A DNA stretch of 64,000 bases from the NCBI GenBank assembly GCA_022844475.1, contig JALHLR010000002.1, positions 62,001 through 126,000 on the forward strand, given 5' to 3'. Both the position numbers and the translations under genes were made by a program. This document shows, piece after piece, positions 420 through 7,079 of this stretch. How positions within the stretch are numbered: the stretch's first letter is position 1; each line of letters opens with the position of its first letter. The stretch is from Hyphomonadaceae bacterium. GTDB taxonomy: Bacteria > Pseudomonadota > Alphaproteobacteria > Caulobacterales > Hyphomonadaceae. The notes beneath the pieces were generated by a model. The model made no database searches. It was given only the letters and a program-made list of their open reading frames with translations, and was not told where the DNA came from.

Positions 420-1139
420 ATGCGTAACGCGTTCACAAATGTGTTCAGCGCCGTCGCGCTCTCCGCCGGCCTCACCCTCGCAGCGCCCATCGCCCTCACC
501 GCAACCGCGCAGGCGATCGACGAGATCGATCCCGCGCAGCCGATCGCCGATGAGGTCGTCAATCTCGCCGCATGGGTAATTGCTGCTGGCGACAATCGCG
601 GCCTGCCCTTCGCCGTCGTCGACAAGGAAGCCGCCCAAGTCCTCATCTTCGGCGCCAACGGAAAGCTTCGCGGCCTCGCCCCCGCCCTCATCGGCTCCGC
701 CGTCGGCGACGACAGCGCCCCCGGCGTCGGCGACCGCGAGCTCAAGGACATCCCGATGAAGGACCGCACCACGCCCGCCGGCCGCTTCCTCGCCGCCTAC
801 GGCCCCGCCGCCGGCAAGCAGCGCGTGCTCTGGGTCGACTACGAAACAGCAGTCTCCATCCATCCGCTCGCCGAAAACAGCGCGCCGAAGGAAAGGCGGA
901 GGGAGCGCCTCGCCTCGCTCGATGCTCAGGACAACCGCATCACCCACGGCTGCATCAACGTCTCGCAGACTTTCTACACGTCGGTCGTGAAGCCAACCTT
1001 CGAAAAGGGCGGCGTCTTCTATGTCCTCCCGGATACCAAGACGATCCAGGCGGCCTTCCCCGGCTACGACCAGCGGATCTTCGTGGCCTCCGCGACAGAA
1101 GCAAACAAGACGGCAAACGCCAGCCTTGTCGCGCGCTAG
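420..1139 (+). CDS. L,D-transpeptidase (YkuD-like) family protein, secreted
   Basis: This is a 239-residue protein. The start at 420 is chosen because it opens directly into a signal peptide (MRNAFTNVF... ending TAQA near residue 32). The C-terminal half carries the YkuD-type catalytic motif ITHGCINV, with the nucleophilic Cys after HG, and an upstream TPAGRF segment typical of the family. Such enzymes use a Cys to form 3-3 cross-links in peptidoglycan or to attach proteins to it. Some relatives with a relaxed SHGC motif are of unknown activity, so the fold is surer than the reaction. It is convergent with the PII gene, with a 4-nt overlap at the stops. Confidence 0.8.
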   Translation: MRNAFTNVFSAVALSAGLTLAAPIALTATAQAIDEIDPAQPIADEVVNLAAWVIAAGDNRGLPFAVVDKEAAQVLIFGANGKLRGLAPALIGSAVGDDSAPGVGDRELKDIPMKDRTTPAGRFLAAYGPAAGKQRVLWVDYETAVSIHPLAENSAPKERRRERLASLDAQDNRITHGCINVSQTFYTSVVKPTFEKGGVFYVLPDTKTIQAAFPGYDQRIFVASATEANKTANASLVAR

Positions 1140-1642
1140 TCCAGCGCCTTCTCGTCCCGCTCACCTGTGCGAATTCGTACCACCTCGGTAAGCCCGGAAA
1201 CAAAAATCTTCCCGTCCCCGATCTTGCCCGATCCCGCCGCCTTCTGGATCGCCTCGATGACCGCCTCCGCCATACCGGACTGCACCGCGACGTCGATCCG
1301 GATCTTCGGCACCTCGGCCACCGCATACTCGTTCCCGCGGTAGAATTCCGTCTGCCCCCGCTGCCGGCCAAAACCCTGGACCTGTGTCGCCGTCACGCCC
1401 GACACGCCCAGCTGCGTCAGCGCCTCGCGCACCGCCTCATAGCGATGGGGCCGGACGATCGCCGTGATCATGCGCATCGGGTGCTCCTGTTCATGCTGCA
1501 GCCCCAGATAGACCAGCCTGCGGATCGCCTCGGACCGGCTGGGCAGGTCCTGCTGTCCACGCCGCCAGTCATCGACATCCCGGCCAAAACTGGCCGAAGC
1601 GACGAGCTGGATGCGCTGGTCGAGCTTTTCCTCGTCACTCAA
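1136..1642 (-). CDS. PII-family nitrogen regulator with N-terminal ribbon-helix-helix-like segment
   Basis: The C-terminal 113 residues are a complete PII protein. Counted from an internal ATG at 1477, the T-loop holds GRQRG, Tyr46 (FYRG) and Tyr51 (NEYAV), the same numbering as the uridylylated Tyr51 of E. coli GlnB. The GKIGDGKIF and RIRTGE signatures are also intact. Upstream, with no stop, about 55 residues resemble a CopG/MetJ ribbon-helix-helix domain, with a short strand (IQLVASASF) and then SRSEAIRRLVYLGL. The proposed start is a TTG at 1642, preceded by AGGAG. The frame is open to a TTG at 1756. The internal ATG at 1477 has its own AGGAG six bases upstream, so a short PII and a long RHH-PII form may both be made. 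PII proteins sense 2-oxoglutarate and ATP/ADP. A DNA-binding role for the N-terminus is inference. Exact long-form start uncertain. Confidence 0.85.
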   Translation of the reverse strand: MSDEEKLDQRIQLVASASFGRDVDDWRRGQQDLPSRSEAIRRLVYLGLQHEQEHPMRMITAIVRPHRYEAVREALTQLGVSGVTATQVQGFGRQRGQTEFYRGNEYAVAEVPKIRIDVAVQSGMAEAVIEAIQKAAGSGKIGDGKIFVSGLTEVVRIRTGERDEKALD

Positions 1643-1819
1643 AAGGCCGGTCTCCTGTTCGGGGGTTATCCCTAGCAAGTTACACACCTGAAGCCAACGC
1701 CCTGATTCCTTATGCGCAGTTAACCGTTCTGCCAGCGGAAATCCGCGAAGCCTCAACGGTTAAATTACCTTGTCGGTTTACCTTGATCCCAACTCAGAAT
1801 GGGTGGTCACGGCAGCCTG

Positions 1820-2731
1820 ATGTCAGACGAGCGCACGATTTCCCCGGATCTGCTGAAGCGCATGAAGGTCCTTATCGTGGACCCCAACGCCTTCATGCGC
1901 GGCGTCGTCGCCGACAGCCTGCGTCGCCTCACCATTACCAACATCAACGCCACCGCCAACGCCGTCGAGGCCTTCTCCGTCGGCCGCACCTTCAAGCCCG
2001 ACCTGATCTTCGTGGACTGGGACGCAGGCCGCATGTCGGGCCTCGAATTCACCCGCGAGATCCGCCGCAACACCACAGGCATCGCGCGCGAGACGCCGAT
2101 CATCCTGCTCGCCGGCATCATCGACCATGACCAGCTGATGTCAGCCCGCCAGAACGGCATCAACGAATTCCTGCTCAAGCCCGTGAGCGCACACGGCGTG
2201 CTGTCGCGCATCGAGGAAATCGTCCTGCGACCGCGCAAGTTCATCGACAGCCGCAACTATGTCGGCCCGTGCCGCCGCCGCAAGGAAGACCCCAACTACG
2301 CCGGCCCCTGGCGCCGCCTCACCGACGAGCCCCCGCAAAAGGCCAAGTCCGAACAGTCGAAGGAAAACGCCTTCAAGCTGCGCGCCATCATCGACAACCT
2401 CTCCGCCTACGCCAACCGCGCCAACGAGGATCGCGGCGCCGGCATCCGCGGCATGTACCGCCTGCTTCAGCAGAACGCCGACGAAGTCAGCCATCTCGGC
2501 GACGACACGATCGTTCGCGTCTGGAATTCGGCCCTGCGCTACATCGAAGGCGTCGGCATGACCGACACTTACGACATCGAAGTCGTGAAGTATCACTTCC
2601 AGACGATCGCGATCATCCTCGACATGCCCGAGGAAGCCTTCATCCACCGCATCTCCGTCGCCAACGAGCTCGACCGGCTGGTCAGCAAGAAGATCCATTC
2701 GGCACACGAGAAGAAGAGCGACGTGGCGTAG
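1820..2731 (+). CDS. Response regulator with REC domain and helical C-terminal extension
   Basis: Residues 15-135 form a CheY-like receiver. The phospho-acceptor is Asp66 (LIFVDWD), the conserved Lys is Lys120 (LLKPVS), and an acidic residue, Asp21, follows strand 1. The Ser/Thr switch position is Ala (LLAG). After the receiver comes a basic linker with two GPxRRR-like repeats (YVGPCRRR near 150, YAGPWRRL near 162), a pattern I associate with alphaproteobacterial receiver proteins. About 110 mostly helical residues of unknown function follow, without a recognisable DNA-binding domain. The start at 1820 is preferred because the receiver follows closely; an in-frame ATG at 1799 is possible. No sensor kinase lies next to it. 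Confidence 0.8.
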   Translation: MSDERTISPDLLKRMKVLIVDPNAFMRGVVADSLRRLTITNINATANAVEAFSVGRTFKPDLIFVDWDAGRMSGLEFTREIRRNTTGIARETPIILLAGIIDHDQLMSARQNGINEFLLKPVSAHGVLSRIEEIVLRPRKFIDSRNYVGPCRRRKEDPNYAGPWRRLTDEPPQKAKSEQSKENAFKLRAIIDNLSAYANRANEDRGAGIRGMYRLLQQNADEVSHLGDDTIVRVWNSALRYIEGVGMTDTYDIEVVKYHFQTIAIILDMPEEAFIHRISVANELDRLVSKKIHSAHEKKSDVA

Positions 2732-2945: not shown

Positions 2946-3371
2946 CTACCCCTTGCGACGAATGGGGCGCGAACCAATCCGCTGCGCGAGCCCCTCGATG
3001 AGTAGCAGAGCCTGGCGCGCATCTATCGGCTTGTAGATTACGAAGCTGGCCCCGGCTGCAAGCAGCCTTTCGCGGGCAGCCGGAGACTGGTCAGACGTGC
3101 AGGCGAGGATCGGCATGCCCGACAGCGACGGATCGGTCTTTTCACGCAGCCAGATCGCAAAGTCCGAGCCCGGTTCCTGTGCGTTTGCCAGGTGCTCATC
3201 AATGACAACGACGTCGACATGGTGCTTTCCAATCAGCGTTTGCGCTGAACGAAGGTCGCGCGCGCCGATGTATTCGAGGCCTGCCGCGGCCAGCAGCACG
3301 CTCCAGATGACCTGAATGCGATCGTGATCGTCGAGCACGAGAACAGTAAGGCCTTCGGTTGGTCCGTCCAC
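2946..3371 (-). CDS. Single-domain response regulator (REC)
   Basis: This 141-residue protein is only a receiver domain. It has an acidic pair Asp14-Asp15 (LVLDDHD), phospho-acceptor Asp58 (VVVIDEH), Thr92 at the switch position (ACTSD) and Lys114 (VIYKP). A short basic tail (RPIRRKG) ends the protein. The start is a GTG with GGAGGA about 10 nt upstream. Proteins of this kind relay or buffer phosphate in phosphorelays or bind targets directly. No kinase is adjacent; the nearest sensory gene is the BLUF protein about 470 nt upstream on the same strand. Confidence 0.85.
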   Translation of the reverse strand: MDGPTEGLTVLVLDDHDRIQVIWSVLLAAAGLEYIGARDLRSAQTLIGKHHVDVVVIDEHLANAQEPGSDFAIWLREKTDPSLSGMPILACTSDQSPAARERLLAAGASFVIYKPIDARQALLLIEGLAQRIGSRPIRRKG

Positions 3372-3844: not shown

Positions 3845-4339
3845 CTAGAGAAAGAGGACATCGCTGTCGCCCACGCTGTCCAACGCCGGGCGGATGTGGG
3901 GCACTCGAAAATCCTGCATGACCCGGAGCAGATCTTCGGCTCGCGGGGAAGCGTCCTGGCTCTGCTCGAAACCCGCCAGCCTCTCGAATTCCCAAATCAC
4001 GGATGCGCCTGGTGAATCGACGTGCTCCCCGCACATGCTCCATCCGGAAAACTGGCGACAGGCCGTCTGCCCCTCCCAGAGCACACGAACAGAGTGATGA
4101 CGGCTGTCATGGCGAATACGCCCGAATGTCTCCTGCACAGCGGGCCTGCTACCCTCCAGTGTCTGCAGGAACATGTCGGCGAAGCTGAGCAAGGCCCCTG
4201 TAACGCCGACCTGCTCGTTGCGCATTTGCGAGCAAGCCAGGATGTTGCGAAAGGACTGGACGGCGGGCAGGTAGCGGCGGGCCCGGCTCGCATAGACCAG
4301 GGTATAAAGACCTGTCTCTGTCGCTTGAATGGATCGCAC
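3845..4339 (-). CDS. BLUF-domain blue-light photoreceptor
   Basis: The N-terminal 105 residues fit a BLUF (blue light using FAD) domain. Tyr16 (LVYAS), Asn41 followed by GVTGALL, Gln59 (FLQTLEG), Trp100 and Met102 (GWSM) sit where the flavin-contacting residues of AppA lie (Tyr21, Asn45, Gln63, Trp104, Met106). Residues 106-164 are a short acidic and helical tail with no output domain, so this is a short-BLUF protein that would signal through protein contacts. The start is taken as GTG at 4339, with GGAG six bases upstream. It binds FAD in the cytoplasm. The neighbouring lone receiver gene on the same strand could be a partner, but that is inference. Confidence 0.88.
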   Translation of the reverse strand: MRSIQATETGLYTLVYASRARRYLPAVQSFRNILACSQMRNEQVGVTGALLSFADMFLQTLEGSRPAVQETFGRIRHDSRHHSVRVLWEGQTACRQFSGWSMCGEHVDSPGASVIWEFERLAGFEQSQDASPRAEDLLRVMQDFRVPHIRPALDSVGDSDVLFL

Positions 4340-4737: not shown

Positions 4738-6072
4738 ATGAACCGTCGCCATTTCCTCGCCACGTCCGTCGCCACAGCCGCCCTCGCAGCGTGCGCCTCG
4801 CCGCAACAACCCGGCGCCTCGATGCGAAAACCCAACGTCATCCTCATCCTTGCCGACGATCTCGGCTATGGCGATCTCGGCGTCTTCGGCAACGGCGTCA
4901 TCCGTACACCGAACATCGACCGCATGGCTGCGGAGGGCGCGCGGCTTACCACCTTCTACGCCTCAGCCAATGTCTGCACGCCCAGCCGCGCGGGACTGCT
5001 CACCGGCCGCTATCCGATCCGCACCGGCCTCGCGCGCGACGTTATCCGCCAGAACGACACGCACGGCCTGCCTCTTTCCGAGATCACCATCGCCGAGGCG
5101 CTCAAGCCGGACTACGCAACCGCCCTCGTCGGCAAATGGCATCTCGGCCACGTCGCGCCCTTCTGGCCGCCGACGCAGCACGGCTTCGACCTGTTCTCGG
5201 GCCTGCCCTACAGTCACGACATGAAGCCGATCGCCTACTATGCGGCGAGCCCCGGCGTCGAACTCACTGAAGAACCTATGGCGATGGACCGTCTCACCGA
5301 GAAGTTCTTCGCCCGCGGGCTCGACTTCGTCGACGCCAACAAGGACAAGCCCTTCTTCCTGCTGCTAACCCTCACCGCCCCTCACATCCCCCTCGATCCC
5401 CACCCGGATCATGCCGGCAGGAGCGCCGCCGCCGAATACGGCGACGTCGTCGAGGAGATCGACGCAAATATCGGCCGCCTCATCGCGCGCCTGAAGCAGC
5501 ACGGCATCGACGACGACACGCTTGTCATCCTCACCTCCGACAACGGCCCCTGGTGGGAAGGCTCCGCCGGTGGCCTCCGCGATCGCAAGGGCAGCGCAGG
5601 ATGGGAGGGCGGCTATCGCGTCCCCTTCATCGCCCGCCAGCCGGGCCGCATTCCAGCGGGCATTGTGAACGATGCCATGGCGATGAACACCGACCTGCTC
5701 CCGACCCTCGCTGCCTGGTGCGGCGCGCCGACGCTCTCAGCGGAACTCGACGGCGCCGACATCAGCAGCCTGCTCACAACGCGCAGCGCCGCCTCGCCGC
5801 ATGACGAGCTGCTCCTCTTCCTCAATGAGGACATCGCCGCCATCCGGACCCAGCGCTACAAATATGTTGTCCGCTCGCACTACCGCTCACTCGACGCGCA
5901 GCTCGATCTGCCCGGCCGCACGGACTGGCCCGTCCTTGTCGACATGGCGAATGACCCGGGTGAATCCTATGATATCTCCTCCCGCCACCCGGACGTGCTG
6001 GCCGATCTGACAGCGCGTCTGGAGCGTGCGCGGGCGAAGTTCGATCCGATGCGAACACCGAAGCCCGGCTAA
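4738..6072 (+). CDS. Sulfatase (arylsulfatase-type), probable lipoprotein
   Basis: This 444-residue type I sulfatase belongs to the alkaline phosphatase superfamily. The N-terminus has paired Arg (NRRHFL) and a lipobox (LAAC) at about residue 19, so it is probably exported and lipidated. Metal-site residues appear as LADDLGYGD near residue 40. The sulfatase signature CTPSRAGLLTGR places Cys80 as the residue to be converted to formylglycine. GKWHLGH and SDNGPWWEG follow, the latter supplying the late Asp-Asn metal ligands. It would hydrolyse sulfate esters in the periplasm. The substrate cannot be told from sequence. No maturase gene or other sulfatase lies in the window. Confidence 0.93.
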   Translation: MNRRHFLATSVATAALAACASPQQPGASMRKPNVILILADDLGYGDLGVFGNGVIRTPNIDRMAAEGARLTTFYASANVCTPSRAGLLTGRYPIRTGLARDVIRQNDTHGLPLSEITIAEALKPDYATALVGKWHLGHVAPFWPPTQHGFDLFSGLPYSHDMKPIAYYAASPGVELTEEPMAMDRLTEKFFARGLDFVDANKDKPFFLLLTLTAPHIPLDPHPDHAGRSAAAEYGDVVEEIDANIGRLIARLKQHGIDDDTLVILTSDNGPWWEGSAGGLRDRKGSAGWEGGYRVPFIARQPGRIPAGIVNDAMAMNTDLLPTLAAWCGAPTLSAELDGADISSLLTTRSAASPHDELLLFLNEDIAAIRTQRYKYVVRSHYRSLDAQLDLPGRTDWPVLVDMANDPGESYDISSRHPDVLADLTARLERARAKFDPMRTPKPG

Positions 6073-6119: not shown

Positions 6120-7079
6120 ATGGCCGTCTACACCGACATCGATGACATTACGCTGTCCGCCCTGCTCGACGAGTACGATCTCGGGCCGCCCCTGGCGTTC
6201 AAGGGGATTGCGGAAGGCGTGGAGAATTCCAACTTCCTTCTGGAAACGCCCAGGGGGCGGTTCATCCTCACCGTCTTCGAGAAACGCGCGAGACGCGAGG
6301 ACCTGCCCTTCTTCATGGGAATGATGGGCCATCTTTCTGCCAAAGGCTTCCCGGCCCCATTGCCCGTGCCCGCGAAAGACGGAAACCCGCTCCGCACCGT
6401 GCACGGCAAGCCTGCCGTCATCTGCACGTTCCTGCAGGGCATGAGCCCGCGCCGCCCGGACGCCGACCAGTGCCGCGCCCTCGGCCAGGCCCTCGGCCGC
6501 TTCCACGTAGCGCTCGCAGACTTTCGGCTCCGCCGGCCGAATGACCTGTCGATCGGCGCATGGCCAATTCTGTGGGAAGGCCGCGGCGCCGAAGCCGACG
6601 CGCTCTCGCCGGGTCTGTCGTCCCAGATCGACGGCGACATGGCCTTCCTGAAGGCCAGCTGGCCAAAGACGCTGCCCGGCGGCGCCATCCACGCCGACCT
6701 GTTTCCCGACAACACCTTCTTCCTCGATGGCAAGCTGTCAGGCGTCATCGACTTCTACTTCGCCTGCTCCGACTTTCTTGCGTACGACATCGCCGTCTGC
6801 CTCAACGCCTGGTGCTTCGAACGGCGCGGCGAATTCAATCTCACCAAGGGCCGCGCGCTGATCTCCAGCTACGAAACCGTCCGGCGCCTCGAACCGCGCG
6901 AGCGCGCCGCCATCCCGGTCCTCGCGCGTGGCGCCGCCATGCGTTTCTTCCTCACCCGCCTCGTCGATCTCGCAGCCACGCCAAAGGACGCCCTCGTCAA
7001 ACCACACAACCCCCTCGACTACGCCGAACGCCTCGGCTTCCATCGCCAGGCCAAGTCGCCCGAGGATTATGGGGCGTGA
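6120..7079 (+). CDS. thrB: Homoserine kinase type II
   Basis: This 319-residue protein has the APH/choline-kinase-like fold of alphaproteobacterial ThrB, not the GHMP type. Visible motifs are EGVENSNFLL near the N-terminus, the nucleotide loop FILTVFEKRA, the catalytic loop AIHADLFPDNTFF and the metal-binding VIDFYFACSDFLAYD. It phosphorylates homoserine with ATP in the threonine pathway. Length and motif order match the family. The gene stands alone between the sulfatase and a convergent hypothetical gene. Confidence 0.93.
   Translation: MAVYTDIDDITLSALLDEYDLGPPLAFKGIAEGVENSNFLLETPRGRFILTVFEKRARREDLPFFMGMMGHLSAKGFPAPLPVPAKDGNPLRTVHGKPAVICTFLQGMSPRRPDADQCRALGQALGRFHVALADFRLRRPNDLSIGAWPILWEGRGAEADALSPGLSSQIDGDMAFLKASWPKTLPGGAIHADLFPDNTFFLDGKLSGVIDFYFACSDFLAYDIAVCLNAWCFERRGEFNLTKGRALISSYETVRRLEPRERAAIPVLARGAAMRFFLTRLVDLAATPKDALVKPHNPLDYAERLGFHRQAKSPEDYGA

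Follow-up and report, generated by a model that had tools for sequence, protein, structure and literature searches.

Few signal proteins are as widespread as PII proteins, which, in the literature that we found, work through protein partners. Ribbon-helix-helix (RHH) domains form dimers in known RHH proteins, and in NikR an N-terminal RHH domain is joined to a ferredoxin-like ligand-sensing domain. In cyanobacteria, the 2-oxoglutarate-responsive regulator NtcA is reported to act at the core promoters of gifA and gifB and to repress both genes (PMC6316151; PMC11288750), and DUF4278 is described as the N-terminal part of the glutamine synthetase inactivating factor IF17 and as dispensable for IF17 function (PMC6316151).

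Here we describe a gene in a 64,000-nucleotide stretch of DNA from a Hyphomonadaceae bacterium (the whole stretch is referred to as the window) in which an RHH-like segment runs in frame into a PII protein. The fusion shares with NikR the outline of an N-terminal RHH followed by a ligand-sensing domain, but its sensor is PII rather than the NikR C-terminal domain, and the ligands and the expected trimeric symmetry differ. Whereas canonical PII proteins act through protein partners in the publications that we found, the fusion has a DNA-binding-like domain. An initial sequence-only reading of the window had known of no described RHH-PII protein, which agrees with the open-access literature, where we found no description of an RHH-PII protein or of such a PII fusion (subscription papers and preprints were outside this scope); the RHH passage in PMC7354497 concerns a different enzyme. 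The parts are of known kinds, and their combination with a candidate operator and a target set appears to be new. We consider it highly probable that the protein acts as a PII-based one-component repressor, which would read ATP and 2-oxoglutarate and control its own gene, glnK and DUF4278 genes.

Results

A complete PII domain preceded by an RHH-like segment

The fusion gene occupies positions 1136-1642 of the window on the minus strand and, as judged from its translation, relatives and alignment, encodes 168 amino acids plus a stop: 168 stop-free codons run from a TTG start codon at 1642-1640 to a TAG at 1138-1136. The coordinates and the uninterrupted frame from the RHH-like part into PII thus proved to be correct in the sequence-only reading. 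The Pfam P-II model (PF00543) matches residues 56-161 (E 1e-26, 93.7 bits against a cut-off of 25, profile positions 1-102 of 102). The PII domain as a whole, residues 56-168, lies at 1139-1477 on the minus strand, an interval that is also the entire short form if the ATG at 1475-1477 is used. The key tyrosine, which the same reading had placed at residue 51 counted from the ATG at 1477, is protein residue 106 (codon at 1325-1327, minus strand) and is indeed invariant across 18 aligned fusions, as are K113, G139-K145, R156 and R158, with Q94 nearly so. We take these residues to be PII Tyr51, Lys58, Gly84-Lys90, Arg101 and Arg103, with their ligand and T-loop roles; Tyr51 is the residue uridylylated in canonical PII. 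The PII domain of the fusion appears to keep the ATP and 2-oxoglutarate residues, and ligand binding is predicted. The complete domain and the ligand and Tyr51 residues are common to the fusion and to canonical GlnB/GlnK (PF00543). Unlike those proteins, the fusion has an RHH-like domain that ends two residues before strand 1, and at T-loop position 55 (PII numbering) the fusions have an invariant Glu where the 10 canonical PII listed have Phe or Met. The window's assembly (78% complete) contains one additional PII, which is canonical and on a different contig.

Among 15 regions from the window's family (f1) and the start of the window, no conserved neighbours of the fusion were seen by eye; response-regulator-like genes adjoin it in several of them. 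In the window, a gene at 3845-4339 (minus strand) encodes a protein with a BLUF blue-light sensor domain (Pfam E 5.7e-25), with response-regulator genes near it at 1799-2731 (plus strand) and 2946-3371 (minus strand), and further along are a sulfatase gene at 4738-6072 and a phosphotransferase-family (APH) gene at 6120-7079 (both plus strand), for which the annotation is ordinary. In the streamlined genomes of family f54 (loci L155, L156, L157 and L159), a gene read as thioredoxin-like begins a few bases after the fusion and is followed by a further gene, in an operon-like order.

Distribution and conservation of the fusion

The fusion recurs at 32 loci from 32 genomes (27 of f1, one of f14 and four of f54), which rules out a misassembly. 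Among 61 genomes, the window's own and 60 relatives, the carriers numbered 13 in the genus, counting the window's own genome, and 8 elsewhere in the family. For the two genus members that gave no fusion match, assembly completeness is 73% and 77%. With a profile of the N-terminal 56 residues, matches came from 27 of 105 family genomes, covering 6 of 10 genera. Wider searches with this profile, which scored about 16-17 first-look candidates per genome at the level of order, class and phylum, gave 37 of 398 genomes at E<=1e-6 in the order, with all 25 strong matches within the family and the PII motif absent from L137-L141 (five of the 12 weak ones), and 11 of 385 genomes at E<=1e-10 in the class. 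Six of these 11 are fusions, from the window's own genome, G721 (f14) and four f54 genomes of merely 1.3-1.4 Mb each; the fusion is therefore also present in two distant families of the class. The remaining class matches, a standalone 63-residue frame in G558 and L148-L151, are without the PII motif. In a phylum sample of 398 genomes, three matched, namely the window's own, G558 and G964 (a 69-residue frame, same class), with none beyond the class. RHH motifs were found in 0 of 80 named PII loci. On plasmids, the RHH segment alone matched six records, and there was no full-length fusion among the best 20 of 101 records listed, where the matches start no earlier than query residue 23. More distant P-II-like matches, such as G001:C1:38641 and G721:C88:24813, were also noted at E values of about 1e-8 to 1e-14, some of them in frames of 337-428 residues.

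Identity over the whole fusion is 66-100% across 19 relatives. The 20th, L103 in the single-contig genome G023, has a frameshift in its PII part at about residue 140, which could be a loss or a sequencing error. The N-terminal 56 residues are 70-95% identical in 18 relatives, mean column identity across the 18 aligned fusions is 84%, and the segment DQRIQLVAS is invariant in these as well as in all 23 aligned N-termini, f14 and f54 included. For 44 N-terminal codons, dN/dS was 0.039-0.155 in 9 of 11 pairs where it was defined, similar to the PII part (0.035-0.199 in 10 of 11 pairs), though with many dS values >1 both sets of ratios are rough. Relatives whose sole start is the internal ATG, with an unconserved stretch upstream, would have spoken against the sequence-only reading; we found instead an extension that is conserved at the protein level and under purifying selection. 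A chance reading frame is ruled out by the relatives, the conserved long start, the alignment and the low dN/dS.

In a tree of 57 PII domains, which took in 23 of the 32 fusions, these 23 form one clade (99/95; 100% of 200 bootstrap trees) separate from canonical GlnB/GlnK. Several canonical PII from the same genomes group with named alphaproteobacterial PII, which makes Alphaproteobacteria the probable class, although PII trees are weak evidence for this. With these 23 fusions on one side of one branch, the simplest reading is a single fusion event, long kept.

The extension resembles an RHH domain

The RHH-like domain, residues 8-53 (1484-1621, minus strand), is laid out as the strand DQRIQLVAS followed by helices at residues 17-28 and 36-53. 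On the window protein, the Pfam model RHH_1 (PF01402) scored E 0.22 and 12 bits, below its curated cut-off of 20.5 bits; it matched 12 of 23 aligned N-termini at E<=1 (best 0.0073) and was absent at that threshold from two of three additional fusions scanned. All five standalone relatives match RHH_1, at 13.4-18.3 bits and so under the same cut-off, and a profile of the extension matched six standalone RHH-like sequences with a probability of 99.6. Each of two NikR models is touched by 1 of 18 fusions (E 0.021 and 0.053); for the window protein there was no NikR model at E<=1, and its C-terminal domain is P-II.

An AlphaFold2 model built from 50 aligned sequences (mean pLDDT 80.9) has the same two helices, with block pLDDT of 80-93, and PII strand 1 from residue 56, elements that were already there in an earlier model from 18 sequences (mean pLDDT 66.9). 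In the monomer model the N-terminal strand appears as coil, as would be expected if it paired only in a dimer. The best Foldseek match was GlnK 2ns1_B (E 7.5e-14); the matches listed (50 of 997) are PII proteins or complexes, with no RHH structure among them. A sequence search for a solved RHH chain gave only spurious matches (WD40, lipase and one Cas chain at E 0.4). Taken together, the weak Pfam matches, the profile match to standalone relatives, the weak NikR matches and the helix pattern lead us to the strong inference that the N-terminal extension is an RHH domain.

Standalone RHH-like proteins of the class (L143, L137, L139, L141 and L148) are without a PII motif, unlike the fusion, and that of L143 is 61% identical to the extension over 56 residues. 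In G558 (L143/L158), the standalone 57-residue protein is found among genes that read as phage-like. A protein of the L143 type is a possible source, or offshoot, of the RHH extension.

A TGTGTAA element upstream of most fusion genes

The heptamer TGTGTAA occurs within 180 nt upstream of 26 of the 30 fusions taken into the test (L099 and L122 were left out), compared to an expectation of 1.35% per region from mononucleotide shuffling. The carriers are all 25 f1 fusions in the test and the one of f14, with none of the four from f54, and the distance from element to start is 43 to 161 nt. At the window's fusion gene, the candidate operator GTGTGTAACTT (1677-1687, minus strand) is the sole exact match to the 11-mer RTGTGTAASTT in the assembly. 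It sits, by eye, inside the 16-bp spacer between a putative -35 box TTGGCT (1692-1697, minus strand) and a weak putative -10 box CTAGGG (1670-1675, minus strand), both assigned by resemblance. A site between the -35 and -10 boxes is the typical position of a repressor operator, and it is for this reason that we favor repression.

Across 13 genomes, RTGTGTAASTT gave 17 matches versus 20 for a reversed control, with no genome-wide enrichment. Only the placement of the 11-mer is unusual: its only match fronts the fusion in nine of the 13 genomes, the window's own included, and in 11 of 13 one match does. A wider regulon was not found with the exact 11-mer; of six off-target sites, two led to DUF4278 genes and the four others to no convincing target by reading.

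The element is repeated with a period of about 9 bp. For 60 distinct sites among 64 collected by script, resemblance of the flanks to the core was highest at offset -9 (4.70 of 8 bases), followed by +9 (3.57), +8 (3.35) and +18 (3.18), compared to a highest score at any offset of 2.93 in 1000 flank permutations. At offset -9, the sites of GlnK-type genes score 6.0-7.0, those of DUF4278 genes 5.05 and the fusion promoters 3.0, and in the last the repeat is weak (3.35 at both +9 and +8, with a median of 2.2). For the DUF4278 sites, +8 beats +9, partly because the selecting pattern fixes that flank. An array of direct repeats would accommodate several adjacent RHH dimers, and it fits better than perfect palindromes, which are not shared among the regions upstream of the fusions. 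A sigma54 element was considered as another reading of the site and has, by eye, unfit spacing. We regard the TGTGTAA element as a candidate operator that would be read by the fusion.

Most GlnK-type PII genes of fusion-bearing genomes carry the core

We examined 80 PII upstream regions of about 330 nt each (the canonical PII gene of G002 and the GlnB-type genes of G004, G009 and G787 were left out), with GlnB and GlnK labels assigned by score rank. The core was present in 21 of 27 GlnK-type genes of fusion-bearing genomes (0.36 expected), in one of 27 GlnB-type genes (that of G669, f54; 0.48 expected), in none of 24 PII genes from 13 fusion-free family members and in one of two from incomplete genus members without a detected fusion. 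The six GlnK-type genes that lack the core are from g4 (four), g6 and f14, lineages with a DUF4278 gene beside the fusion. In the tree, four GlnK-type genes of fusion-free genomes (L104, L106, L107 and L112) share one well-supported group with the site-bearing genes of G007, G016 and the window's own genome; the GlnK-type gene of G721 lies elsewhere. The GlnK-type promoters of the window's genus contain three tandem repeats, and in g3 the site is immediately before the GlnK-type gene start in the opposite direction. Three of the GlnB-type genes have beside them a gene of some 470 residues that is presumably glnA.

We think it unlikely that the fusion is instead an activator, or acts mainly in mixed trimers with GlnK or GlnB, and that, in the window's genus, its role at DNA is chiefly autoregulation. 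This would fit the finding that the sole exact 11-mer of the assembly fronts the fusion itself, and mixed trimers are conceivable given that PII domains of the same cell are about half identical (54% between the fusion and the canonical PII in the window's own genome). However, ahead of that canonical, GlnK-type gene we noted by eye the arrangement TTGAAC-ATGTGTAAGTAGTGCAA-TATATA, in which a looser version of the core lies inside the 17-bp spacer between -35-like and -10-like boxes, the place typical of a repressor.

DUF4278 genes share the element with the fusion

An extended site, TTGACNAANTTACACA, was found in 12 of 27 fusion-bearing versus one of 78 fusion-free family genomes (Fisher 1e-7, a value that overstates independence given that the genomes are related). 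Of the 18 such sites in fusion-bearing genomes, 15 are followed by an ORF that contains YRG at least twice, and two more (L199 and L200) by a diverged YRG ORF; L205 begins similarly. The lone fusion-free site (L193) had no YRG gene in the following 420 nt. When five of the YRG proteins were scanned, all matched Pfam DUF4278 (PF14105), with 46.5, 30.7, 25.0, 23 and 17 bits and therefore two of five over the 25.3-bit cut-off (the proteins of L142, E 4.8e-12, and L101, E 4e-7). In the family, DUF4278 matched at E<0.01 in 7 of 105 genomes, all of them fusion-bearing, a count that leaves out the fusion-bearing G002 (E 0.08) and YRG genes found elsewhere by pattern and missed by Pfam. Across the 13 genomes of the window's genus, neither Pfam nor a YRG-protein profile gave a credible DUF4278 gene.

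The position of these genes varies. In g3 a long distance separates them from the fusion, and the element they have in common is all the more informative for it. In g4, g6 and f14, the element on the opposite strand is, by eye, inside a promoter of the form TTGACA - 17 bp - TATATT-like that opens onto a small divergent gene encoding three YRG repeats, and with the site between divergent genes, the gene that it serves is ambiguous. In f54, YRG genes lie just upstream of the fusion with the exact RTGTGTAASTT in G745 and G669; the site is present and a YRG gene was not seen in G450, and neither was seen in G574. At the class level, DUF4278 at E<=0.001 was limited to 5 of 353 genomes, the fusion-bearing G721 and G669 and three of f125. 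The element was absent at the DUF4278 genes of the three f125 genomes (L223, L224 and L225), which are fusion-free, as they do not figure among the class-level matches of the N-terminal profile. The TGTGTAA core is also missing at L186, a DUF4278-like gene in a fusion-bearing genome.

These distributions bear on the possibility, which we judge quite improbable, that the PII is real while the RHH-like segment serves as a protein-protein or oligomerisation module and TGTGTAA belongs to another, co-inherited regulator. The RHH_1 scores below cut-off, the failure of sequence searches to find a solved RHH chain and the lack of genome-wide enrichment of the 11-mer would all be compatible with such a module. 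However, the element tracks the fusion within the family, both at the extended site (12/27 versus 1/78) and at GlnK-type genes (21/27 versus 0/24), and it recurs in f14 and f54 while the DUF4278 genes of the three fusion-free genomes are without it. In addition, the invariance of DQRIQLVAS in 23 of 23 N-termini is hard to square with a mere linker. We therefore continue to favor DNA binding by the fusion itself, and the proposal in the sequence-only reading that PII is here tied straight to transcription gains support from an old and real fusion, an RHH-like extension and a candidate operator that tracks the fusion.

Two conserved translation starts

The same reading had suggested dual starts, each with an AGGAG, and both are where it placed them, at 1652-1656 (minus strand) ahead of the TTG for the long form and at 1484-1488 (minus strand) ahead of the ATG for the short PII form. 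Both start codons are conserved. A start codon lies 5-8 codons ahead of the invariant QRIQ in 21 of 21 fusions inspected (32 found); it is TTG in 11 of 13 members of the window's genus and GTG, ATG or TTG elsewhere. All 18 aligned fusions share the internal PII ATG. Ahead of it, a Shine-Dalgarno-like match of at least 4 bases is present in 30 of 32 genes versus 21.0 expected from synonymous resampling (0 of 5000 resamples as high) and in 17 of 19 representatives versus 11.7 expected (8 of 5000 as high), p values that are weakened by kinship among the sequences. The mean match length is slightly raised, at 4.38 versus 4.08 expected (4.5% of resamples as high) for all genes and 4.37 versus 4.01 (5.8%) for the representatives. 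Given that the purine run before the internal ATG persists while the encoded amino acids vary, and given the excess over resampling, we consider it moderately supported that the internal ATG is a true start, and both isoforms may be made, perhaps in the regulated ratio that the sequence-only reading had suggested. That only the short form matters, with the upstream frame a chance read-through, is hardly credible: the invariant internal ATG with its preserved Shine-Dalgarno-like stretch and the TTG start of most long forms in the genus would allow it, but the extension is under purifying selection and as conserved as PII, and the position of the long start is kept in every fusion inspected.

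Discussion

From the conservation, the single fusion clade, both start sites and the element distribution that we computed, we infer DNA binding, repression, ligand gating and isoform mixing along the following lines. The RHH-like dimer would bind tandem repeats of the TGTGTAA core in core promoters and repress them, and the PII domain would set this binding by sensing nitrogen and energy status through ATP/ADP and 2-oxoglutarate, perhaps also through uridylylation. In the window's genus, the targets would be the gene of the fusion itself and the GlnK-type PII gene; in g3, DUF4278 (YRG-repeat) genes would join these two; and in g4, g6, f14 and two of the four f54 genomes, the targets would be the DUF4278 genes beside the fusion. 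The short form or GlnK might mix into the PII trimers and in this way adjust the number of RHH arms per assembly. We make no claim on the direction in which 2-oxoglutarate acts, since the nitrogen state that would call for GlnK is the opposite of the one that would call for a glutamine synthetase inhibitor.

The circuit of NtcA with gifA and gifB, as presented in PMC6316151, likewise has a 2-oxoglutarate-responsive regulator at the core promoter of a DUF4278-carrying gene. NtcA is a CRP-family protein, whereas here the site would be read by RHH-PII, and as we see it the likeness is one of circuit and not of descent. The YRG proteins could possibly be glutamine synthetase inactivators, to which we do not commit. 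More speculatively, and with some doubt on our part, the fusion might found a new one-component class in which two PII trimers are joined by three RHH dimers, matching the three repeats of the GlnK-type promoters, with the short form as a tuner and the whole in an NtcA-like role. As part of this picture, the repeated YRG of DUF4278 proteins resembles the YRG that PII carries at its T-loop tip and could vie for the partners of PII.

The combination of a dimeric RHH and a trimeric PII in one chain raises a structural puzzle. If the proposed repressor is real, the path from 2-oxoglutarate and ATP sensing to gene control would be shortened to a single protein, which would also be a ready-made 2-oxoglutarate biosensor, and DUF4278 proteins outside cyanobacteria would become testable nitrogen regulators.
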